Notes under the pieces: model-generated
The model's database searches: none
The model's input: only the letters and a program-made list of their open reading frames with translations
What the model was told of the DNA's origin: nothing
Position numbers and translations under genes: made by a program
Assembly: GCF_011250515.1 (NCBI RefSeq)
Contig: NZ_JAANOP010000003.1
Coordinates: 1-64,000, forward strand
Reading direction: 5' to 3'
DNA from: Aquirufa ecclesiirivi
GTDB taxonomy: Bacteria > Bacteroidota > Bacteroidia > Cytophagales > Spirosomataceae
DNA: 64,000 nt
Part shown: piece by piece, positions 4,900 to 16,447 of the stretch
Layout of the letters: each line of letters starts with the position of its first letter
Numbering within the stretch: position 1 is the stretch's first letter

Positions 4900-5537
4900 T
4901 GAAAAGAAGAGATTATTTAAAAAATATCGGCTTAAGTTCATTGGGCTTAGCTGCATTGAATCCTCAAGTAAAAGCCATGGAGGCTTTGGAAGGAGCACCT
5001 GATCCTAAAAAAGTAGCTCCATTAAAAGTTCCCAATGGTAGAACCATGGATGAAGCAGAACGTGATGCCAAATTAATGGCTGAAAAGTTCTTAAATGCAC
5101 ATGAATTGGCTACCATTACGATCTTGTCAGATATTATCATCCCTGCGGATGCTAAATCTGGAAGTGCTTCTCAATCAGGAGTTACTAAGTTCATTGAGTT
5201 TATTGTGAAAGATAAGCCTGAATTTAAAACACCGATGCGTGGTGGTTTAAGGTGGTTAGATGGAGAATCTAAGCGTCGTTTTAGTAAATTATTTACTGAA
5301 ATTACTCCCAAACAACGCATTGAAATTGTAGACGACATTGCTTATCCTGAAAAAGTAAAACCTCAGTTTTCCCAAGGAGTGAATTTCTTTACTTTGATGA
5401 GAAATTTAACTGCTACAGGTTTCTATACCTCTAGAATCGGTTTAGATGATTTAGCTTATAAAGGAAATACACCCAACGATTGGAAAGGTGTTCCTGATGA
5501 AGTTTTAAAGCAATACGGTTTATCTTACGATGATTAA
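4899..5537 (+). CDS. Gluconate 2-dehydrogenase subunit 3-like protein, Tat signal
   Basis: The 212-residue product matches the small gamma subunit that accompanies membrane FAD dehydrogenases such as gluconate 2-dehydrogenase. Its N-terminus has a twin-arginine motif (RRDYLKN, residues 3-9) followed by a hydrophobic stretch to about residue 22, which suggests Tat export. In characterised systems the small subunit carries the catalytic subunit across the membrane, which would explain why the upstream GMC protein has no signal of its own. It overlaps the upstream gene by one base and the downstream gene by eight, so the three are probably co-transcribed. No cytochrome subunit is encoded nearby, so the electron acceptor is unknown. 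Confidence 0.88.
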   Translation: MKRRDYLKNIGLSSLGLAALNPQVKAMEALEGAPDPKKVAPLKVPNGRTMDEAERDAKLMAEKFLNAHELATITILSDIIIPADAKSGSASQSGVTKFIEFIVKDKPEFKTPMRGGLRWLDGESKRRFSKLFTEITPKQRIEIVDDIAYPEKVKPQFSQGVNFFTLMRNLTATGFYTSRIGLDDLAYKGNTPNDWKGVPDEVLKQYGLSYDD

Positions 5538-6276
5538 ACACTCCGATTTATACCTTAAACCGGACATTTTCAAACATATTCCTCAATTAGTGGCGGGTGT
5601 CAGTACCCGCCACGGAGGAAAAAGTCAAGCTCCTTATTATTCCCTAAACCTAGGAGTACATACAGACGATCAAGCAGAAATCATTCAAGAAAATATTATT
5701 CTTTTATGCCAATCATTAGGCATAAAGCCCCAACACTTAGCTCGATCTTTTCAAACCCATCAAGATCTTATTTGGGAATGCCAACAACCTGATTATCAAA
5801 GTGGTTTTGATGCCATCATCAGTACGCAAGCAAATATTTATTCAGCAGTGGGCATAGCCGATTGCTGCCCCGTACTTCTAGTGGATCCTGTGCAAAAAAT
5901 TACCGCAGCCATTCATGCGGGATGGAAAGGTTCTGTATTAGGAATCGTTCCCAAAACAGCCAATTTATTACTCACTAAGTACCAAAGTCAAGCCAAAGAT
6001 CTATTGGCCTATATAGGCCCTTGCATTAGTCTACAACATTTTGAGGTGGGAGATGAAGTAGCTGCTCAGTTTCCGGAGACTTGTAAACAAAAGTTTTCTG
6101 ATAAATGGCATGTGGATTTGAAGCAACACCATGCATTGCAGTTAGCTGAATTAGGTATATCTCAAATAGAAATTTCACCTTGGTGCACAGTTGAGCACAA
6201 TGAACATTTTTTCTCACATAGAAAAGAGCAAGGTTTGACGGGTAGAATGTTAGCTTTTGTTGGATTTAAGTCCTAA
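5530..6276 (+). CDS. pgeF: Laccase-domain purine nucleoside phosphorylase (YfiH/PgeF family)
   Basis: The 248-residue protein belongs to the DUF152/multicopper polyphenol oxidase family. Characterised members act as purine nucleoside phosphorylases and adenosine deaminases, and E. coli YfiH has also been linked to peptidoglycan editing. Visible family landmarks are VSTRHGG near residue 24, NLGVHTDD near 40, the His in FQTHQD, GIADCCPVLL, and AIHAGWKGS with its conserved His and Gly. The metal-site pattern of two His and a Cys can be followed. It starts inside the preceding gene (8-base overlap), although its function looks unrelated to the GMC pair. No transmembrane or signal sequence is seen. 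Confidence 0.93.
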   Translation: MIKHSDLYLKPDIFKHIPQLVAGVSTRHGGKSQAPYYSLNLGVHTDDQAEIIQENIILLCQSLGIKPQHLARSFQTHQDLIWECQQPDYQSGFDAIISTQANIYSAVGIADCCPVLLVDPVQKITAAIHAGWKGSVLGIVPKTANLLLTKYQSQAKDLLAYIGPCISLQHFEVGDEVAAQFPETCKQKFSDKWHVDLKQHHALQLAELGISQIEISPWCTVEHNEHFFSHRKEQGLTGRMLAFVGFKS

Positions 6277-6474
6277 ATATTAATCAAGTATTTGGAATCT
6301 CAAAACTTGAAATATATCAAATATCCGTCCCCATGGAGCTCCAAAGCCCATTTTTGTCTACATATTATCTACAAACTGATAATGTAATCTTAGGCTATTG
6401 ACATTCCTTTTGTAATTAGGACATTTTTTTGAAATTGCCTTCGAAATAATTCAATCACCCTAACCCTAATTACA

Positions 6475-6627
6475 ATGAAAAAGTTAAAATTAACCTTGAC
6501 TGTTCTAGAAAACAGAGATGCTTCTTTCGGAGGATCAAACGAAGTCGCACTAGCTGGTTCGACTTGCACATGTACTTGTACCTGCTGCAAATCAAACAAT
6601 GATGCTCCAGCGGAAGCAACAGCCTAA
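6475..6627 (+). CDS. Putative TOMM/azole RiPP precursor peptide
   Basis: This 50-codon gene is the first of the RiPP operon. The product starts MKKLKLTLTVLEN and has a leader-like N-terminal part with a Gly19-Gly20 pair. A second small-residue site, Ala27-Gly28, directly precedes the core. The core, residues 29-38, reads STCTCTCTCC, with Cys at 31, 33, 35, 37 and 38 and Thr at 30, 32, 34 and 36. It is followed by a hydrophilic Ala-rich tail. Cys/Ser/Thr runs of this kind are the substrates of YcaO cyclodehydratases, which turn them into azolines, and the enzymes follow immediately downstream. No convincing Bacteroidota promoter was found in the 198-base gap upstream. The leader is not an exact match to any RiPP leader family I can name. 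Modification, cleavage site and bioactivity are inferred. Confidence 0.85.
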   Translation: MKKLKLTLTVLENRDASFGGSNEVALAGSTCTCTCTCCKSNNDAPAEATA

Positions 6628-6633
6628 TTGGAT

Positions 6634-6662
6634 AAATGGGTAGAGATATTCTCTACCCATTT
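6634..6662 (+). terminator. Perfect 13-bp hairpin after the precursor gene, probable attenuator
   Basis: The arms 6634-6646 and 6650-6662 are exact inverted complements around a three-base loop (TAT). The structure begins seven bases after the precursor stop and ends in a short T run (6660-6663). It could act as a partial terminator or an RNA 3'-end stabiliser, giving more precursor mRNA than enzyme mRNA, as is common in RiPP operons. Because one arm covers the ATG at 6636, that ATG is an unlikely start for the next gene. Confidence 0.6.
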
Positions 6663-6683
6663 TACAAAAATACCTACCCACAT

Positions 6684-7550
6684 ATGAAAACGACAATACC
6701 CCACCAAGCCATATTTTGTGGTCCAGATACGCTATACATTGTAAACGGAGATCAGAACCTGATTGAAATTCATGGAGAATCTACTCCAATGATCAAAGAA
6801 ATACTAAAAGGAATACATCAAAAAATTTCCTTGGAAAGTATTTACGAAAGTCATCAAGCAGAGTTTGGGCATGATAATGAAACATTTCATGAATTAATTT
6901 CTTGGATGAAGGAAAAACAAGTAATCCTACAATCTAAAAATACGCACACAATAAAAATTCATGTTCTCATTGACGCTAAGTTTTCAGACCAATCAACTTC
7001 TCTCATTAGCTCACTGAATGAAATAAGCCAAAAATCAGTAGAATATACCTTAGAAGACAATATAAAGGCGGCTGATTTAATACTCTTTTGGGGTTCTTTA
7101 TTTACTCACCGTAATCGTATAAAAGACCTTGCCCAGCTAAGTTATGAGGCTAAAATACCCCTATTGTACGTCGACATAGATAGCTCATCCTTTACCCTTG
7201 GGCCTATTTTTTCTCCTGAATTATTAAGCCCTTGCTTGAACTGCTATGCAGATCGAAAACAAGTACAACTGAAAAATCCAAAAGCCTTTTCCATTCTACA
7301 AAAAAAACAGAATCATGAGTACATCTATACTCCCCTAGTCAAGAATAAGAAGTATTTCACCGCATTGGTCAATTTCATTCACGAAGAATTACATCAATTT
7401 ATTTTATCGGGTTTTACGTATTCCCCGTTAATAGGCCAAAGTTTTGTGATGACAGGCAGTCCTATTGAAGTACAAAAATTCAACATCCTTAAAGTTCCAC
7501 ATTGCCCTATTTGCAGCCAAAGGAATCAATCTATGACATTCAATATTTAA
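6684..7550 (+). CDS. TOMM cyclodehydratase partner, E1-like/ocin-ThiF (C protein)
   Basis: The 288-residue product resembles the leader-binding partner of YcaO enzymes. Residues 1-85 look like a small winged-helix RiPP recognition element, which would hold the precursor leader. Residues 90-190 have the E1/ThiF-like alternating beta/alpha pattern, without a clear nucleotide-binding glycine loop, as expected for partners that no longer adenylate. The family-typical LGPIFSPELLSPCLNC leads to Cys184 and Cys187. A second pair, Cys274 and Cys277 (CPIC), completes a probable zinc tetrad. The frame extends up to an ATG at 6636, but that codon lies in the hairpin stem, so the ATG at 6684 is preferred. 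The YcaO gene begins 13 bases after the stop. Confidence 0.85.
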   Translation: MKTTIPHQAIFCGPDTLYIVNGDQNLIEIHGESTPMIKEILKGIHQKISLESIYESHQAEFGHDNETFHELISWMKEKQVILQSKNTHTIKIHVLIDAKFSDQSTSLISSLNEISQKSVEYTLEDNIKAADLILFWGSLFTHRNRIKDLAQLSYEAKIPLLYVDIDSSSFTLGPIFSPELLSPCLNCYADRKQVQLKNPKAFSILQKKQNHEYIYTPLVKNKKYFTALVNFIHEELHQFILSGFTYSPLIGQSFVMTGSPIEVQKFNILKVPHCPICSQRNQSMTFNI

Positions 7551-7563
7551 ATAGCCTTAACCC

Positions 7564-8832
7564 ATGGTTCCATTAAAACATGATTTAATCCACGGAAATC
7601 GCTATCAGATTCCAACAAGAAGGTGTTTACCGCTGGGTTTATACCAAAGCTATGTAGAGGCAGCACACCTAGACATCTTAGCTTCCAATACCCATATGAT
7701 TCAAGGTTCCGGGATTGGATTCTGCCAAATAGAGGCAGATAATTCGGCCATAGGTGAATGGATAGAACGATATGCGGCATCACATCAGCACCCCAAGGAT
7801 TTCATTTTTGCTAGTGAAACAGATTTGAGAAACCAAGGTAAAATTTTCTTGCCCGTCGAAACATGTATCCCATTTATTCCTGCGCAATATGACTCAAATT
7901 TTCCCTATCAAACATGGCAAAAAGACGATGTACTCAGTTGGATCGAAAGTAAAAACATCCTCAATCAGGAATCTGTTTGGGTACCTGCATTTACAGTTCA
8001 TTTACCTCATAATACGGAATGGGATCAAAAAAAGAATTTTATTCTTCAAACCTCAACAGGCATTGCAGCTGGGAAAAACATGCAGGATGCCACGGTTGGA
8101 GGCTTTTTAGAATGTGCCGAAAGAAATGCTTTTGCAGAGTTCTGGTATCGTCAAGATCATTGGATAAAACGAATTCCAATCATGAACCAACAAGATGTAC
8201 TTACTTCCTATAGGCACCCAAAAATCAAGCAATTGTTTGACAATACACGAGTTCAAATAAAGCTTTTTGATTTATCAGCTCTAAGCCCCGTAGAAACACA
8301 TGTGGTCGTACTCTTTTTTCCATATAAAGGACAACTTTTCCAGTCCATGGGTTGCGCTAGTAGATTCATAAAAGAAGACTCCATCATTAAAGCTTGCTTG
8401 GAAGCTTATCAAGGAGTTGAATATGCCATTGGACTTAGTCAAAAACCAGAAGATTGGATCCAAAATATGCCAAGGTTTGAAAACATCAATAGTTTTGACA
8501 AGCATTTTGCTTTCTACAATCGTTTTCCTCAATGGAGAAAAAAATCACCTATTCTCCAGGTAGCTTTAAGCCCAGAATCCTATTTTCCAAACCAAGAAAT
8601 AGGCTCCAGTAAGATTCATTCTTGGGATGAAGTAAACCAATTAAATATAAGCCAAATTCTAGTCGTGCCAATTAGTACGGAAGATGTACAATCACAAGGA
8701 TTTGAAGTAGTCCGAGTGATTGTACCCAATTGGAATTTACTTACAGGAGTGCATTCCCAGCCTTTCTTAAAATACCTAAAGGCTCAATCGAGTGAAAATT
8801 TATTTCTTTCATATCCACATCCATTCCCATAA
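7564..8832 (+). CDS. YcaO-type cyclodehydratase (TOMM D protein)
   Basis: YcaO enzymes use ATP to activate the peptide backbone so that Cys, Ser or Thr side chains close into thiazolines or (methyl)oxazolines. The 422-residue protein shows the first ATP/Mg motif as Ser61, Glu65 and Glu68 (SAIGEWIERY), and the second around Glu183-Glu186 (GGFLECAERNAFAEFW, 179-194) after STGIAAG. The last five residues are Pro-His-Pro-Phe-Pro (418-422). This is the PxPxP C-terminal motif that marks azoline-forming YcaO proteins and lies in their active site. It is separate from the E1-like partner rather than fused to it. Spacing on both sides is tight (13 and 3 bases). Function as a cyclodehydratase is well supported; the number of rings is unknown. 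Confidence 0.93.
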   Translation: MVPLKHDLIHGNRYQIPTRRCLPLGLYQSYVEAAHLDILASNTHMIQGSGIGFCQIEADNSAIGEWIERYAASHQHPKDFIFASETDLRNQGKIFLPVETCIPFIPAQYDSNFPYQTWQKDDVLSWIESKNILNQESVWVPAFTVHLPHNTEWDQKKNFILQTSTGIAAGKNMQDATVGGFLECAERNAFAEFWYRQDHWIKRIPIMNQQDVLTSYRHPKIKQLFDNTRVQIKLFDLSALSPVETHVVVLFFPYKGQLFQSMGCASRFIKEDSIIKACLEAYQGVEYAIGLSQKPEDWIQNMPRFENINSFDKHFAFYNRFPQWRKKSPILQVALSPESYFPNQEIGSSKIHSWDEVNQLNISQILVVPISTEDVQSQGFEVVRVIVPNWNLLTGVHSQPFLKYLKAQSSENLFLSYPHPFP

Positions 8833-8835
8833 ATC

Positions 8836-9555
8836 ATGAAAAAAATTCTATTTCTTTTAATGGCTACCCTTCTTTTACCTACCCTCATTAGGGCACAAGG
8901 AAGCATGGAAAACATCCTACATGAAGCACAAAAAATCACTTGGAAAACACCCAAAGATAGTTTGCAAAAAATCATCAATTATATGAATAATCACCCTAGT
9001 AACGATTATCACTATTTGTATTGGAATGCCTATGCCCATTATATGGAATACTTCAATTACAAATTAGCTATTCCATCGGAAGAGAAAAAGGCGAAAAATT
9101 GTTTAGAACAAGCATCCAAAATCCTAAGCAAAATCACCAAGTCTAATTCGGAATCCTTAGCATTACAATCACTGATAGAAGGACTCAAGCTCAACTTTAC
9201 GAATGTTTTCCTTTTGCCAATCAAAGCAGGAAAAGTAGGCAAATTAGCCGAAAGAGCGATTGATTTAAACCCTAAAAACCCCCGAGCCTATTATGCTTTA
9301 GCCATTTATGATTTTTATACCCCAAAAATGTATGGAGGCAGAAAAGTGGTTGAATCCAACTTGGTTAAAGCTATCTCTTTATCCTCCACAATACCAGAAA
9401 ATTCTAAAGAACCCAATTGGGGCATATCCGAATCCTATTTGTTTCTAATCCGATTTTACAAAGAAGAAAATCAAAAAAACAAGGCTCAACAATACTTACA
9501 AGAAGCCAAAAACAAATTTCCTGAGAATACCATTTTTCTACAGTATAAACTCTAA
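8836..9555 (+). CDS. Secreted TPR-like protein of the RiPP operon, function unknown
   Basis: The 239-residue product has a Sec signal peptide (about residues 1-20, ending in IRAQ). The mature part is helical and resembles tetratricopeptide repeats, for example the AERAIDLNPKNPRAYYALAIYD segment split around residues 136-157 and a last repeat near KAQQYLQEAKNKFPEN. It lies between the YcaO and dehydrogenase genes with gaps of 3 and 5 bases, so it is almost certainly co-expressed with them. Its periplasmic location suggests a step after synthesis: maturation, trafficking or protection. No catalytic motif is visible. I know no characterised function for such a protein in a TOMM pathway. Confidence 0.8.
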   Translation: MKKILFLLMATLLLPTLIRAQGSMENILHEAQKITWKTPKDSLQKIINYMNNHPSNDYHYLYWNAYAHYMEYFNYKLAIPSEEKKAKNCLEQASKILSKITKSNSESLALQSLIEGLKLNFTNVFLLPIKAGKVGKLAERAIDLNPKNPRAYYALAIYDFYTPKMYGGRKVVESNLVKAISLSSTIPENSKEPNWGISESYLFLIRFYKEENQKNKAQQYLQEAKNKFPENTIFLQYKL

Positions 9556-9560
9556 AACCC

Positions 9561-10391
9561 ATGGCCAAGACTAGAAATTTATTATTTGAACCTTGCATCT
9601 CGGATATTTCCTTTGATTTTCTTGAACAGAGTAAATTATATAGCTACCAAGCTAAAGAATATAGTGAACGTCTTCATGCGGTCATGTCTAGCGACTATTT
9701 TATGAAAAACATCAGTCACCACAGCATAGAATTGGGATTTTGTGATGAATATGATTTATTAACTATTGACCAGTTACCGCCTTTGGCTGAAGCTTTAAAT
9801 CAATTAAACCAAGAAAGAAATAGCCAAAGAAATTATGATTCTGAAGAGCTTGTTTCATTTCAAGATTTATCTCGCTTTCTCCAGTTAAGCTATTCCATTA
9901 CCCAAAGGTTTGACCCCACATTATTCATTCCTCCTCGTAGAAATATTGCTTCAGGTGGTGGATTATACCCCATCGATGTTTATGTCATAAATCAACATAT
10001 ATCTGATCTCCCTTTAGGAGTATTTATCTATGATCTCTTTACAAATAAACTCAAGCTAATTCATGCCTTCAAGAATCGAGAGGAATTAAAAGTAGCTCTT
10101 AATAGGACATTGTTTGCAGAGCAAAAAAATGATATTGATTATATAAATGCCAGTGCATTTATGGTATTGGGTGCCGAATTAGAACGATCCTGTTTTAAAT
10201 ATTTAGATAGAGGCATACGTTGGGCGATGTTAGAAGCTGGGGAAATTGTCCATGCCATGTACTTAGCTAGCGCAGGACTAGAATTGAGCACTTGTGCCAT
10301 TGGTGGTTTCAATGATGAGGCGCTCGCACGATTAATTAATTTCCAGAATCCAAGTCAGATTACCCTCTTAGCTCTAGCCTTAGGTAAATAA
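9561..10391 (+). CDS. SagB/McbC-type FMN-dependent azoline dehydrogenase
   Basis: The 276-residue protein belongs to the nitroreductase superfamily, in the subgroup that oxidises thiazolines and oxazolines to aromatic azoles. The marker is PPRRNIASGGGLYPIDVYVI (residues 124-143), the RP-SAG-LYP-like stretch that shapes the FMN site in SagB. It is followed by LPLGVFIYDLFTNKL and a C-terminal LSTCAIGGFND segment. An N-terminal extension of about 85 residues precedes the catalytic fold, as in SagB-type enzymes. Its presence implies that at least part of the core is oxidised to azoles, since pathways without it leave azolines. The next gene starts one base after the stop. Confidence 0.9.
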   Translation: MAKTRNLLFEPCISDISFDFLEQSKLYSYQAKEYSERLHAVMSSDYFMKNISHHSIELGFCDEYDLLTIDQLPPLAEALNQLNQERNSQRNYDSEELVSFQDLSRFLQLSYSITQRFDPTLFIPPRRNIASGGGLYPIDVYVINQHISDLPLGVFIYDLFTNKLKLIHAFKNREELKVALNRTLFAEQKNDIDYINASAFMVLGAELERSCFKYLDRGIRWAMLEAGEIVHAMYLASAGLELSTCAIGGFNDEALARLINFQNPSQITLLALALGK

Positions 10392-10392
10392 A

Positions 10393-11556
10393 ATGAATTA
10401 CATATTCAATCCAGATTATAAATTAATCTATTCGAAAGAGAGTACAGAAGAACTCTATTTCAAACACACTTGGAAAGATACGCTTATTCAAATCAGTCAA
10501 TGCGAATGGAATATTCTAAGTCATTTAGTGAAGAATCGTGATGAAAACAAAACCCTTATTTACCTAATGCAGAGCTATGATGCGGACCGAAGTATACTAA
10601 ATCAATTAATCCAATATTCACTTGAAACCGAATTAATAATATGGGAAGATGCATTAGAAGCGCAGCAAAAACAGAAAACATTATTTCAAAACCAAAGCCT
10701 ATCGAATTGGAAATTAGTTATAAGTCAATTGTTTTCCTATGTATCCATACCCATTGAATTTATAGGAAGAGGAAATCTTCGTTTTTATAAAGTTGCCAAA
10801 ATCCCCCTCGAGAAAACATGGATGGAATCTTGGGCAAAAAATCAAATGGCACAAACGTTTTTTCAAATTATGGTCATTTTACTTATGTTCACAGGAATAG
10901 GTCAAATCATATATAATCCACAATTCATTAAACAATGGCAAGATTTTGAATTAATCAATAGTCCCATTCTTCTCCCTTTCTTGATTAGTGGACTTCTTGT
11001 TTCTACTTTTTTACATGAATTTGCTCATTACTTAATTTATTTGAAACATGGTGGTTTAGTGGCTGATTTGGGGTTTTCTTTCGTTTTAGGCTTCATTCCA
11101 TTTGTACATATCAATACCAATTCCCTCCATTTTTGGGATAATCAAAGACATCGAGTGGAAGTGATACTAGCTGGAATTTTATTAGATATCTCATTGGTTC
11201 TGGGTATAAATATCTTCTTGGATTGGGAAATGGAGAAAATATGGCTATCACATTGGCAATTTTTGCAATGCTTTATTGCATTCCGAATCATCTTTAATGC
11301 TATTCCTTTTATCCCAGGAACGGATGGCTATTTTCTCCTTTCCGAGTATTTACATGAACCCGCACTTTTTCATGAGGCAAGCCGATCAATAAAAAAATTT
11401 AAAACATCCCTATTTCAATTGAATGTAAATACTCTTGAGCCAAAAGATTACCTGTTTGTTGGCTATATCCTGATGAGTTATTGCTTTATATCAGCTTATT
11501 ACTGCTTGTTGGCATTATGGATTATTCTCCCCTATTTCATCCGTTTCATACCATGA
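10393..11556 (+). CDS. Membrane M50-type zinc metalloprotease, candidate RiPP leader peptidase
   Basis: The 387-residue product has a soluble N-terminal part of about 90 residues whose helix-rich pattern resembles a PqqD-like/RiPP recognition element, followed by several membrane segments. A zinc-protease signature HEFAH (residues 208-212) lies in the segment STFLHEFAHYLIYLKHGG, and a matching second motif NAIPFIPGTDGY (302-313) supplies Asp311. Together these fit the site-2 protease (M50) active site. M50-like proteins occur in some RiPP operons, where they are thought to process or handle the peptide. Here a leader-binding front end joined to a membrane protease suggests precursor cleavage at the inner membrane. 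The gene starts one base after the dehydrogenase stop, and its TGA overlaps the ATG of the receptor gene. Confidence 0.8.
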   Translation: MNYIFNPDYKLIYSKESTEELYFKHTWKDTLIQISQCEWNILSHLVKNRDENKTLIYLMQSYDADRSILNQLIQYSLETELIIWEDALEAQQKQKTLFQNQSLSNWKLVISQLFSYVSIPIEFIGRGNLRFYKVAKIPLEKTWMESWAKNQMAQTFFQIMVILLMFTGIGQIIYNPQFIKQWQDFELINSPILLPFLISGLLVSTFLHEFAHYLIYLKHGGLVADLGFSFVLGFIPFVHINTNSLHFWDNQRHRVEVILAGILLDISLVLGINIFLDWEMEKIWLSHWQFLQCFIAFRIIFNAIPFIPGTDGYFLLSEYLHEPALFHEASRSIKKFKTSLFQLNVNTLEPKDYLFVGYILMSYCFISAYYCLLALWIILPYFIRFIP

Positions 11557-13664
11557 TTAGAACAAGTCTCCTACTATTTTTATTATTCCTATCCTCTAGA
11601 TCGATGGCTCAATTTAGCCTAAAAGGAAGTGTTATGGATGCTTATCATCAAGTAAAATTGGAAAATGTTAGCCTCTATTTAGTTCACAATAAACTATTTG
11701 AACGAAGTGATTCAACAGGCTCTTTTCATTTTCAAAAATTAAACAAAGGTCTTCCTGATACCTTAGTGGTATCCATCATCGGCTACAAAAAACAGAGTAT
11801 CCCAATAGTTGAAAATAAAACACTACTTATTCAACTACAATTGGATAAACCTAATGCACTAGCTGAAGTTCAAGTCAAAGCAAGTGTACCCATGTCGGAA
11901 GATTTCGTCAATCAAAAAATCAACTTCCTCGATATAGTGTTAAATGCCTCGTCCAAGGCCGACCCTCTTTTAGCTGTTCAATCAACCTCGGCAGCAAGTC
12001 CATTTGGTGAATCTGCCTCCATTAGTTTTAGAGGAAGTAATCCCCAATTAACTCAAATATACATCAATGATATTCCCATTCCTGAACCGATCAAATTTAC
12101 ACAAATGTCTAGTTTGGGAACCTTCAGTCTTATTCCCATCAATACCATCAAGGATTTACTTGTCTTCCCCAGTAACCCTCCAATAGAGCTATTGAATGCC
12201 AATACTGGAGTAGTCCAAATTCAAAGCAATGAATCATTCCAAAAGCAAAATCTGGAAATTGATGCTAGCCTAGGACAATCTGGTATACATTGGACCCCAT
12301 GGTCCAATAAAAAAAATGGGATTAGTCTTTTTGGACACCATCAATTTAGCCCATTATTAAAATTCTTCAATCCAAGCGCCTTGAGCAATTTACCTCATTT
12401 CAGCGAAAGCGACTGGGGGATAAATGGCTATTTCCAAACTAAAAACTTATGGCGATTAAAGCTATTTAGCCTATTTATGGAAGAAAAATATGCAAGTCAG
12501 TTTAGACATCCTTCTTTTGAAGGCACTTTTGATTATCAAAAATATAGACATGTTCAAACCCTAAATTTATCCAAACTCCTGGAGCATACACAATGGACAT
12601 TTAAGTTTGGATTCCATGAATCTTCTCAACATGATAGTACAGGAAATTATGCTTATCACCCAAAAGCACTTCAACTATTCAGTGGCATTGACTTGCAGTT
12701 ATTTCCACAAGAAAACTGGTCTATAAAAACAGGATACCAATGGCTACATACCCAAACCTCCTACCAAATCCGAAAACCCTATTATACTTTTGACTACCGT
12801 CCGCAATCTGCTTCTGTTTTGTATGCCAATAATCCATCTTTATCTCAGCAAGAATTATTTCTTTCCAATAATTATACCATTTCAAAACCAGTCAGAATTG
12901 GATTTGGTATAAAATTGATACATTTTCCGCAGCTAAACGATTTACAAGTTAGCCATCAAATCCATACTCGATGGTTTTTAAACGATTCTTTTACCTATAC
13001 CAATCTAGCTTGTAGCAAACAAATAGCTAGCCTATTTACCGCAGAAAATGATTATGTATGGGTTACTACCCAGCAAATTTCTTGGGATATCGTACACGAA
13101 CAAGAACTGAAAAAATGGAGTTTCCATGCCTTCTATAAAACAGAAAAATCACTTGTAAATACTACCCAAGCTTGGGGGGCAGAGTTTAACTTAAGCCTAA
13201 TCAAATCAAAATCAAAACATGAGCTTGGAATTGGAAGCCATTGGAGTCAGCAAAAAATCGGAATGAATAGTCAAAATTCGCCTTACCAAATTCCTTTTTT
13301 TTTACGCACGAATTCACAATGGAAATGGAAATACCTTGACCTTAGTATGAGCAGTGTGATTAGAACAGGGAATTATTATACGCCATTGAGTTCGTCAACC
13401 TATTCAACTGAACTACAAATACATGTTCCTGTCTTTGGATCAACAACTTCACAAAATGTATCTCCTTATATGAGAATTGACGCTATGCTTAGTAAAATGA
13501 TTCACAAATCAGATAAGATCATATGGATTACCTATTTGTCTATAAGCAATGTTTTGAACCGGGATAATGTCAAATCCATTAATTACACTAGGGACTATCA
13601 ACAATCCTTTCAAGAATATTTTCAAAAACGAGTGATTTACATAGGATTACAACTGAGATGGTAA
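11553..13664 (+). CDS. TonB-dependent outer-membrane receptor of the RiPP operon
   Basis: The 703-residue product has a signal peptide (residues 1-19, ending in SMA), a carboxypeptidase-D-like domain (about 22-100) and a plug-like region containing SISFRGSNPQLTQIYINDIP. A long beta-barrel rich in aromatic residues follows, ending in Arg-Trp. The frame can be extended to 11481, but the ATG at 11553 forms an ATGA overlap with the protease stop and begins a good signal sequence, so it is preferred. The coupling makes it an integral operon member. It could import the finished azole peptide (metallophore-like), export it or confer self-protection. Its typical-looking TonB box was not identified. 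Confidence 0.88.
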   Translation: MIRTSLLLFLLFLSSRSMAQFSLKGSVMDAYHQVKLENVSLYLVHNKLFERSDSTGSFHFQKLNKGLPDTLVVSIIGYKKQSIPIVENKTLLIQLQLDKPNALAEVQVKASVPMSEDFVNQKINFLDIVLNASSKADPLLAVQSTSAASPFGESASISFRGSNPQLTQIYINDIPIPEPIKFTQMSSLGTFSLIPINTIKDLLVFPSNPPIELLNANTGVVQIQSNESFQKQNLEIDASLGQSGIHWTPWSNKKNGISLFGHHQFSPLLKFFNPSALSNLPHFSESDWGINGYFQTKNLWRLKLFSLFMEEKYASQFRHPSFEGTFDYQKYRHVQTLNLSKLLEHTQWTFKFGFHESSQHDSTGNYAYHPKALQLFSGIDLQLFPQENWSIKTGYQWLHTQTSYQIRKPYYTFDYRPQSASVLYANNPSLSQQELFLSNNYTISKPVRIGFGIKLIHFPQLNDLQVSHQIHTRWFLNDSFTYTNLACSKQIASLFTAENDYVWVTTQQISWDIVHEQELKKWSFHAFYKTEKSLVNTTQAWGAEFNLSLIKSKSKHELGIGSHWSQQKIGMNSQNSPYQIPFFLRTNSQWKWKYLDLSMSSVIRTGNYYTPLSSSTYSTELQIHVPVFGSTTSQNVSPYMRIDAMLSKMIHKSDKIIWITYLSISNVLNRDNVKSINYTRDYQQSFQEYFQKRVIYIGLQLRW

Positions 13665-13665
13665 T

Positions 13666-14391
13666 CTATTTATTAGCGTTAGACTCCCTTAAAAACTGTT
13701 GTCGAGAAATGTTTTCTTTAGGCAAAAATTCATACGCCTTCTTCCATTCTTTCTTCTTTAAATCTCCATTTTTAATGGATTGAATGAAGTTGATCCACGC
13801 AAAAGGATTCGTTAAAGATAAAATAGGACTCGCATAAAATGTTTTATTTGCTTGAGCTGAAACCATTTGATCAGAAAAGTTTCTAAAATTAGATGATGCT
13901 CCCATACCTGCTTGTAATGCAAAAACATTGAGCTTGGACTGTTCCAAATTATTGGCCAATATCCCCCTTTGCTTTTCATCGCGTAGTCGCATATTTAAGA
14001 ATGCCTGCTTAAACTCCTCCTCAGAACTGTGGGGAAAGACTTTTACCTCAGACAACATTTTCGATTCTTCTGACAAAGAAATAATGGCACGATGAACCTG
14101 ATCCGTATTTTTAGGAATAATGTAATATTTTTTCTGATAGCCCACATAAGTAAACACCAAACTATCTCCTGGGAACACATACATCTCTACCATTCCAAAA
14201 TTATCACTCAATGCTCCTCGACCAGCCTTTGGGTTATATACGTATGCCAAGGGTAAATCTTCTGCTTTGGTTGCAGTAACTACCCTTCCAAGAAATAATA
14301 CTGTTTTGTCCTGCCCTTGAGCCAACAGATCTTGACTCATACATGCAACTAAAAAGAAAAGTCCCAATATGACTCGTTTGCAAATTTTCAT
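13666..14391 (-). CDS. Secreted carboxypeptidase-D-regulatory-like domain protein
   Basis: The 241-residue product carries a Sec signal peptide (about 1-24, ending in LLAQ). An Ig-like CarboxypepD_reg fold follows: VLFLGRVVTATKAEDLPLAYVY, with a glycine-containing turn and VFTYVGYQKK. The C-terminal half is charged and helical with no recognised domain. Such stand-alone proteins are common in Bacteroidota and probably sit in the periplasm or at the outer membrane; the function is unknown. The gene converges on the RiPP-operon receptor with one base between their stops, so it is not part of that operon. No terminator hairpin is visible between them. Confidence 0.8.
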   Translation of the reverse strand: MKICKRVILGLFFLVACMSQDLLAQGQDKTVLFLGRVVTATKAEDLPLAYVYNPKAGRGALSDNFGMVEMYVFPGDSLVFTYVGYQKKYYIIPKNTDQVHRAIISLSEESKMLSEVKVFPHSSEEEFKQAFLNMRLRDEKQRGILANNLEQSKLNVFALQAGMGASSNFRNFSDQMVSAQANKTFYASPILSLTNPFAWINFIQSIKNGDLKKKEWKKAYEFLPKENISRQQFLRESNANK

Positions 14392-15293: not shown

Positions 15294-15500
15294 TTAATTC
15301 TTGAATTCGTCTAAAGCTACCTTTGCCTGTTCGAAATGGTCTTGGTGCACATATAATTCAAATACACCCAAATTATAAGGGCTAATTTTCTTATTAATCA
15401 CAACGGCAGGTATTTCATACCTTTCAGAAAGCATGGACTTTTGCATTTCTAAATCGATACCTTGTTGAGATGATCCTAACAATACCCAGTCCTTGATCAT
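15294..15500 (-). CDS. DUF2007-family small protein
   Basis: The 68-residue product resembles the DUF2007 'putative signal transducing protein' family, a ferredoxin-like fold related to PII-type proteins. Its pattern is WVLLGSSQQGIDLEMQKSML, VVINKK and an ending ELYVHQDHFEQAKVALDEF. The open frame extends to 15575, but the ATG at 15500 overlaps the upstream stop as ATGA, which indicates translational coupling and is the better start. The exact role is unknown. Confidence 0.85.
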   Translation of the reverse strand: MIKDWVLLGSSQQGIDLEMQKSMLSERYEIPAVVINKKISPYNLGVFELYVHQDHFEQAKVALDEFKN

Positions 15501-16447
15501 ATTTCTTCTTTTTGTTGATACATCAAACGAATATAATAAATAAGAAATAGCAATGAAATAGCTGCAGACCACCATGGAATCATCTCTCCAACTTGCTCAG
15601 GATCTAAATCAATCAACTTTTCTTGGTGTAAATAGGACAAGGTTAATGTCCATGCATTATTAAAAAAATGGGCCAATATGGGTAACCAAATATTTCTAAA
15701 CCAAATGTACAAATAACCAAAAAATGCACCTAATAACATCCTTGGCAGAAAACCATAAAACTGAAAATGGATAAAGCTAAATATGGCAGCTGATAACCAA
15801 ACAGCCACATGAACATTGATCAAATATCGCTCAAACAAATTTTGTAATACCCCTCGGAAAAATAATTCTTCTCCGATAGCGGCCATGCCTGCAATCACAG
15901 CCAAAGCCGTCACAAAATCCAAGGGTGTTTCGAAATGTAATAAAAACTTGGTTAATCGAGCCATATTGTCTTCCGAAGTTCTCATCCAGGCCTCCACTTC
16001 TTCATAGCCCGCTGGAAGTACAATGGATTGATTCCACTGAATGATGTATTCCATCAAGGGAATGGAAACTAATAATGCGATGATAGCCCAAGAAAAAATC
16101 CGCCAAGATGGCGCATCTAAAGGACTTAACTCATATAAAGTGCGTTTTTCGATAAATTTCAAATAGGCCCAAGAACCTCCAACAAAAGTAAATAAAGAAA
16201 CAAACCACTGCAAAGCCATGATTCCTTTGAAGGCTCCAGCGTATTTTTCTGGATTAGCCATGAAATCCAATAGTAATTTTTGAAATTCGGCCACATTTGT
16301 CGTAGGGAATTCCATTATTAAAACCACTGCGACCATACCCAAAAACTGCCCTAAGAAGCTCCCAAGCAGAAAAAATCCAAATAAGCTAAGCACTTTCGAA
16401 AAAAGACCAAACCAACGCGCGGGTCCAGAAATGTAGTTTTCTTCCAT
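15497..16447 (-). CDS. CPBP-family intramembrane metalloprotease (Rce1/Abi type)
   Basis: A multi-pass membrane protein of 316 residues. The CPBP motifs are in order: EELFFRG (Glu193, Glu194, Arg198), FSFIHF (His227) and AHFFNNAW (His260, Asn263/264), which together form the Rce1-like glutamate/histidine active site. An N-terminal half with four hydrophobic segments is typical of bacterial versions. Family members process prenylated proteins in eukaryotes and handle bacteriocins or immunity in some bacteria. It is about 1.8 kb from the RiPP operon but on the other strand and in a lipid-gene operon, so a link is unproven. It overlaps the DUF2007 gene by four bases. Confidence 0.92.
   Translation of the reverse strand: MEENYISGPARWFGLFSKVLSLFGFFLLGSFLGQFLGMVAVVLIMEFPTTNVAEFQKLLLDFMANPEKYAGAFKGIMALQWFVSLFTFVGGSWAYLKFIEKRTLYELSPLDAPSWRIFSWAIIALLVSIPLMEYIIQWNQSIVLPAGYEEVEAWMRTSEDNMARLTKFLLHFETPLDFVTALAVIAGMAAIGEELFFRGVLQNLFERYLINVHVAVWLSAAIFSFIHFQFYGFLPRMLLGAFFGYLYIWFRNIWLPILAHFFNNAWTLTLSYLHQEKLIDLDPEQVGEMIPWWSAAISLLFLIYYIRLMYQQKEEI

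Follow-up and report, generated by a model that had tools for sequence, protein, structure and literature searches.

What becomes of a ribosomal peptide whose biosynthetic genes share an operon with a relative of a porphyrin carrier and an outer-membrane receptor? This question is raised by a locus in a 64,000-nucleotide stretch of Aquirufa DNA (the window), where seven open reading frames (ORFs) form one colinear run on the + strand: precursor peptide, E1-like protein, YcaO protein, tetratricopeptide-repeat (TPR) protein, SagB-type dehydrogenase, M50-like membrane protein and TonB-dependent receptor. The probable product is a linear polyazole peptide resembling streptolysin S (SLS), made by thiazole/oxazole-modified microcin (TOMM) enzymes and served by a dedicated HusA-type carrier and a receptor, with recapture of the peptide being somewhat likelier than outward transport or immunity. 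The host, a freshwater bacterium (Aquirufa, Bacteroidota), has a genome of 3.1 Mb that is 99.66% complete, and the operon is located on its contig 26. The seven genes are as follows.

6475-6627, + strand: precursor peptide, 50 amino acids; leader with VLENRD, core STCTCTCTCC after Gly28, tail KSNNDAPAEATA
6684-7550, + strand: E1-like partner (TOMM leader-binding protein); TIGR03882 37.0 bits, cut-off 36.9; two CxxC pairs
7564-8832, + strand: YcaO cyclodehydratase; PF02624 1.6e-44; C-terminal PHPFP
8836-9555, + strand: HusA-like TPR protein, candidate envelope carrier; signal-peptide-like start; PDB match HusA 6bqs/6crl
9561-10391, + strand: SagB-type dehydrogenase; TIGR03605 116.8 bits, cut-off 78.4; Nitroreductase 1e-17
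10393-11556, + strand: M50-like intramembrane metalloprotease, candidate leader protease; HEFAH and GTDGY motifs
11553-13664, + strand: TonB-dependent outer-membrane receptor; N-terminal carboxypeptidase-regulatory-like domain

The successive intergenic gaps, obtained by subtraction, are 56, 13, 3, 5, 1 and -4 bases, in agreement with the seven-gene run claimed in the original prediction, which was made from the window's letters: all seven ORFs are present and colinear, and the first gap is the largest. That list of genes stands, while its order had to be changed, the TPR gene lying between YcaO and SagB and being followed by M50 and receptor. The E1-like and receptor ORFs had likewise been recognized correctly, but both starts were shifted, the receptor's to 11553 and that of the E1-like protein most likely from 6636 to 6684, where an ATG is aligned in six species; 6636 was rejected as a start since a hairpin (6634-6662) occupies this position.

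The TOMM core and its probable product

In the text available from two articles, a glycine followed by 9-10 or more contiguous Cys, Ser or Thr residues is the proposed defining feature of SLS-like TOMMs (Molloy et al. 2015, PMC4513790; PMC4603692). Gly28 of the window precursor is followed by ten contiguous heterocyclizable residues, and this core lies adjacent to the modifying enzymes, as is expected of a TOMM. The SLS precursor model TIGR03602 scores the window precursor at 11.5 bits, under its cut-off of 35; three precursor relatives match it at 0.00055-0.0064, all under cut-off as well. A search within the corresponding locus of genome G249 revealed a precursor homologue of 52% identity (2e-7). 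The new product class once suggested for this locus found no support: with its Gly and the uninterrupted Cys/Ser/Thr stretch behind it, the core conforms to the SLS-like pattern. This hallmark and the three matches to the SLS model would equally suit a membrane-active peptide directed against other cells, for which the HusA-like protein and the receptor would provide outer-membrane export or self-protection; taken together with the evidence given below, this is a possible but doubtful explanation.

The enzymes carry the expected motifs. Both CxxC pairs of the E1-like protein, the PHPFP end of YcaO and a Lys-Tyr pair of the SagB-type enzyme, which we take to be functional, are invariant in nine of nine aligned proteins each. 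The E1-like protein scores 34.2 against the SagC model (cut-off 187.65), and YcaO, the sole YcaO match in its own genome, 156.3 bits (1e-45) against the SagD model (cut-off 219.25). Models and motifs thus bear out the complete TOMM core (precursor, E1-like partner, YcaO and SagB-type dehydrogenase) predicted for this Bacteroidota genome. Conceivably, YcaO forms thioamides or alters the backbone in some other way, rather than making azol(in)es, and the protein does match the McrA-glycine thioamidation model (5.6e-22, under cut-off). However, the match to the SagD model is better, and the PxPxP end, the E1-like partner, the SagB-type dehydrogenase and the Cys/Thr/Ser core all argue for ring formation, which renders thioamidation very improbable. 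As judged from established TOMM biochemistry, the E1-like protein would bind the leader and, together with YcaO, cyclodehydrate the Cys/Thr/Ser run, whereupon the SagB-type enzyme would oxidise the rings to azoles.

The leader would then be cut off by the M50-like membrane protease, a role proposed by analogy with related metalloproteases of ribosomally synthesized and post-translationally modified peptide (RiPP) operons. Its residues His208, Glu209, His212 and Asp311 are invariant in eight of eight aligned sequences. The protein and its relatives match the models of the daptide and YydH/LiaK metalloproteases, likewise HExxH membrane proteases of RiPP operons, although under both cut-offs: the daptide model NF041824 gives 8.6e-13 and 48.2 bits for the window protein, far under its cut-off of 300, and 90.9 for that of G249, whereas the YydH/LiaK model (cut-off 225) gives 48.4 for G249 and 44.3 for G109. 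With regard to a possible RiPP recognition element, profile comparison of the M50 and E1 N-termini yielded 52-68% over about 45 columns locally and 1.5-10.7% globally, and one M50-like relative touched a PqqD-type model at 0.0081. The M50-like ORF of G022 (L017:12627-12761) starts 43 residues shorter than the others, owing to a frameshift or an alternative start.

Precursor, E1-like C protein, YcaO D protein, SagB and the glycine followed by about ten Cys/Ser/Thr are shared with SLS-like systems. In contrast to these, the window operon contains neither an ABC transporter nor a CaaX-type protease, which argues against the membrane-active peptide, and harbors the M50-like protease, the HusA-like carrier and the TonB-dependent receptor instead; YcaO and C protein also fall under the SagD and SagC cut-offs, as described above. 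A CaaX-type (Rce1-like) gene at 15497-16447, 1.8 kb downstream of the operon on the other strand, was rejected as a cluster member, since it is kept at the same place in seven of seven genomes without the operon.

The HusA-like carrier and the receptor

HusA, a haemophore-like protein, adopts a TPR-like fold and binds porphyrins in a hydrophobic groove, as far as the accessible text of three reports goes (PMC6173696, PMC10100897, PMC12106395); according to the same parts of the first two, it prefers metal-free porphyrins and presumably delivers its ligands to HusB, a TonB-dependent receptor (PMC6173696, PMC10100897). Compared with the PDB on its own, the window protein matches HusA best (E 3.6e-5, next match 0.16), and with a profile built from 11 relatives the match to the Porphyromonas gingivalis HusA (6bqs/6crl) reaches 1.6e-25. 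The homologues from G015 (3.1e-6) and G223 (1.7e-6) behave alike, HusA being the sole credible solved structure for each of the three single-sequence queries. The original prediction was right in calling the accessory set unusual, yet its label 'TPR-like' was incomplete, the homology to HusA having gone unseen. The receptor itself matches CarbopepD_reg_2 (PF13715, 2.2e-9, over cut-off) and Plug (PF07715, 7e-4, under cut-off).

As in the Hus system of P. gingivalis, carrier and TonB-dependent receptor are thus encoded in one operon. The two differ in that the window carrier is separated from stand-alone HusA-like proteins, appears to have a partly changed groove and belongs to a peptide-making operon. 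No second HusA-like protein was matched in the window's genome and none in eight Aquirufa genomes tested that are free of the operon, while four of seven other genomes tested gave a match. Because a receptor was found beside all four stand-alone HusA-like genes that were fetched, carrier and receptor constitute a module. Within the TOMM clusters described below, the carrier adjoins the receptor in G249, G256, G223 and G318.

The existence of such stand-alone pairs in the order (four of four inspected) would also be in line with a common uptake pair for haem or porphyrin that has no link to the TOMM genes beyond the shared transcript. Several observations make this improbable: the pair accompanies the TOMM core in all 14 clusters and three layouts, the carrier gene of the window stands among the biosynthetic genes, the residues of the haem groove appear partly changed, and the carriers of TOMM operons separate from stand-alone copies in a tree. 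In this tree of 18 HusA-like proteins, comprising ten of the 14 TOMM-operon copies (G002, G012, G022 and G290 left out), the split between the two types has a support of 1.000, with several low supports (0.12-0.71) within either side. Second HusA-like genes of the stand-alone type were observed beside layouts B and C (L071:4908-5567, L072:4905-5561, L019:7975-8631 and L020:9225-9872); in the tree, those next to B and to two of the C clusters fall with the stand-alone type. In three layout C clusters the starts of the HusA-like proteins resemble what we take to be lipoprotein signals.

Distribution of the cluster and constancy of its precursor

A search of the bacterial family with YcaO at 1e-10 yielded matches in ten of 222 genomes, namely six Aquirufa, G108, G109 and, weakly, G208 and G048. 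A scan of contigs showed one relative, in Aquirufa aurantiipilula, and a search of plasmids with YcaO returned 21 records, all below 60% identity. The operon is present in six of 38 Aquirufa genomes, always at one site, and the precursor in the same six. In these carriers the flanking gene 13666-14391 is 93-100% identical to that of the window, compared with 64-82% in 30 other genomes with a match, from which we infer that the carriers form the Aquirufa nivalisilvae branch. The text available on this branch gives about 3.0 Mbp and 38% G+C (PMC11861422). Separate arrival in each species was rejected in view of the same site and flanks in all six. Among seven regions fetched from non-carriers the site is closed up in five (G001, G011, G013, G028 and G024), so that the copper-oxidase gene adjoins the 13666 gene; one other gene lies between them in G006, and the same gene is found in G026, where the contig ends short of the copper-oxidase gene.

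Wider searches, whose samples overlap, gave matches in 7 of 390 genomes of the order at 1e-40, 2 of 395 in the phylum, 2 of 345 in the class at 1e-15, 3 of 204 in the family of G249 at 1e-30 and 19 of 350 in the order at 1e-12. The latter 19 comprise 13 full-length TOMM-type proteins and six partial matches in frames of 690-742 amino acids; two of the six, G163 and G364, were inspected and showed no match to the other profiles. Another YcaO setting appears at L099:8302-12177 and L022:8637-12581, where a YcaO-domain protein of 667-681 amino acids stands beside one of 623-632, presumably an asparagine synthase.

A search of the neighbourhood in relatives had been proposed along with the original prediction, and it uncovered a conserved neighbourhood, with 14 clusters in three layouts, from the six Aquirufa and eight more genomes of the order; with this recurrence the seven-gene arrangement is beyond chance. 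E1, YcaO, SagB, HusA-like protein and receptor were detected by profile in all 14, the receptor with a profile built from sequences outside layout C. The M50-like protein has a profile match in ten, and a short HExxH protein is present in the other four. Layout A comprises the six Aquirufa and G249, in which all seven genes occur, the HusA-like gene is moved beside the receptor and the precursor bears ten Cys/Ser after Gly. In layout B (G108 and G109) the receptor lies upstream, followed by E1, YcaO, HusA-like protein, SagB and M50, and the precursors, with Cys/Thr runs at their ends, are encoded downstream on the opposite strand. Layout C (G256, G223, G318, G290 and G1035) has the order precursor, E1, YcaO, SagB, ABC ATPase, ABC-2 permease, short HExxH protein, HusA-like protein and receptor; G290 and G1035 deviate in having a divergently oriented receptor gene upstream. 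The two ABC proteins exceed the Pfam cut-offs in all five members, that is in five of the 14 clusters, and the short HExxH protein exceeds the M50 cut-off in two (G318 and G1035) and stays under it in three. The E1 match is weak in G290 (1.4e-6) and stronger in the others; for G290, G1035 and G256 the precursor was chosen by visual inspection. G208 and G442 make up a fourth group, which has the TOMM core and showed neither a HusA-like protein nor a receptor within the 20 kb retrieved.

Immediately 5′ of E1, layout B encodes short leader-like peptides (L019:8671-8862, + strand, and L020:9055-9216, - strand) in which an ESRD/ENRD motif precedes a hydrophobic segment resembling a transmembrane helix; such peptides might anchor the enzyme complex in the membrane. 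A protein of about 750 amino acids and no clear family is encoded beside SagB in G208 (L021:6321-8585) and near the G109 cluster (L019:15615-17873; 27% identity, 4e-65), and perhaps one of similar size and place in G442 (L098:6014-8251).

RiPP cores are usually hypervariable; here the situation is inverted, with a frozen precursor next to enzymes that evolve fast. Residue 44 is the only one of the 50 to differ across the six carrier species, and silent changes alone are seen in 30 of 50 codons. The mean ratio of non-synonymous to synonymous rates (dN/dS) of the precursor is 0.012, with 0.011 for the flanking GMC gene and 0.014 for the Dus gene, as opposed to 0.05-0.12 for the six other operon genes (10, 14, 9, 6, 8 and 12 usable pairs of 15, the rest being saturated). 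Of the gap-free columns in the other six proteins 39-60% are variable, and even their most constant segment of 50 columns holds at least six variable ones. Mere constancy of a recent or recombined copy was rejected, because the precursor dS of 0.89 lies within the flanking range of 0.77-1.63; the other operon genes reach 1.47-2.26, and the lower silent rate of the precursor may add a little to its constancy. A diversifying weapon would not predict a near-invariant peptide over six species, which again speaks against the membrane-active peptide.

Not everything agrees with a simple picture of a frozen precursor. The copper-oxidase gene (5530-6276, named from Pfam), which adjoins the operon, is 36% variable in the carrier branch with a dN/dS of 0.108, compared with 4-24% in the other flanking genes tested. 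As this gene is also fast, and as the operon dS lies above that of the precursor and most flanks, part of the contrast between precursor and enzymes may be regional. The trees of enzymes and flanks are not clearly congruent, several supports being low; together with the operon dS above that of the flanks, this leaves room for recombination within the carrier branch.

Two non-coding features accompany the precursor gene.

6425-6474, + strand: conserved 5′ element (promoter or 5′ leader); 44 of 50 positions invariant in six species
6634-6662, + strand: hairpin (attenuator or partial terminator) between precursor and enzyme genes

The three 50-base blocks preceding the 5′ element have 17, 12 and 21 invariant positions, and a 22-base piece of the element occurs only once in its own genome at up to three mismatches. 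The hairpin folds with -19.7 kcal/mol, compared with -7.8 for shuffled sequences (z -5.0). In the alignment of six sequences 94.9% of cells are paired, a value reached by one of 500 shuffles, and three of 13 pairs show two-sided changes (reached by 10 of 500), the number of pair types being ordinary (400 of 500). Hairpins 3′ of the precursor are also found in the clusters tested, G249, G223 and G318. They would fit a partial terminator that sets precursor output above enzyme output. A search of Rfam gave no match.

Possible fates of the peptide

Most likely, HusA-like carrier and receptor handle the peptide, predicted to be flat and hydrophobic, in the cell envelope. Should this be so, recapture has about an even chance, export is clearly less likely and immunity less likely still. 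A secreted peptide would be recaptured by the logic of a metallophore or scavenger, as with methanobactin or the haem system Hus. Since five clusters contain ABC exporter genes, uptake is left as a natural role of the receptor. HusA and HusB work in uptake as well, a point against the membrane-active peptide. In methanobactin operons, too, a peptide that the cell makes and modifies itself is accompanied by genes for a TonB-dependent receptor and a periplasmic binding protein, a likeness that is limited by the TOMM enzymes of the window operon; no methanobactin enzyme was among the model matches of its proteins. The polyazole peptide might even act as a metallophore or a porphyrin-like scavenger that leaves the cell, is loaded and returns by way of the dedicated carrier and receptor, but this is a tentative idea that we would not favour at present.

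Several points weigh against the favoured reading as a whole. The window's operon has no exporter, making the receptor a possible export route, as the membrane-active peptide would have it; according to the available text of a graspetide study, receptor-related proteins are predicted exporters in Bacteroidetes (PMC8939145). Carrier and receptor genes are non-adjacent in the window, HusA-like proteins also occur with no TOMM genes nearby, and the Pfam M50 match of the window protein is under cut-off (0.0028). In one pairwise alignment, with HusA residues numbered as chain position plus 21, Phe80 and Tyr164 are kept, whereas Val124 is replaced by Phe, Leu123 by Asn and Trp130 by Leu; these five residues either weaken haem binding upon mutation or line the groove. 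By this comparison haem itself is not supported as ligand of the window carrier, and a groove may persist with another ligand.

None of the open-access papers searched, a set without bioRxiv and the majority of subscription journals, describes a TOMM cluster with this combination of genes. The words Bacteroidetes, TonB and M50 are absent from the accessible text of the catalogue of TOMM families by Cox et al. 2015 (PMC4603692), as are bacteriocin, YcaO and antiSMASH from that of the Aquirufa papers searched. Lap-1 (PMC9576775) was rejected as a Bacteroidota relative, coming from Enterococcus caccae.

The pairing of a TOMM core with a HusA-type carrier and a receptor gives the peptide a testable role, be it in retrieval, in export or in immunity, and hints at a cell that shuttles the peptide it has made or takes it back. 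HusA-like proteins could thereby extend from porphyrins to a ribosomal peptide, and the constant precursor suggests that the product itself is kept by selection. If the metallophore idea were true, TOMM chemistry would here serve a strategy like that of methanobactin, and the product would have stayed chemically the same throughout a freshwater lineage despite the rapid evolution of the proteins that make it.

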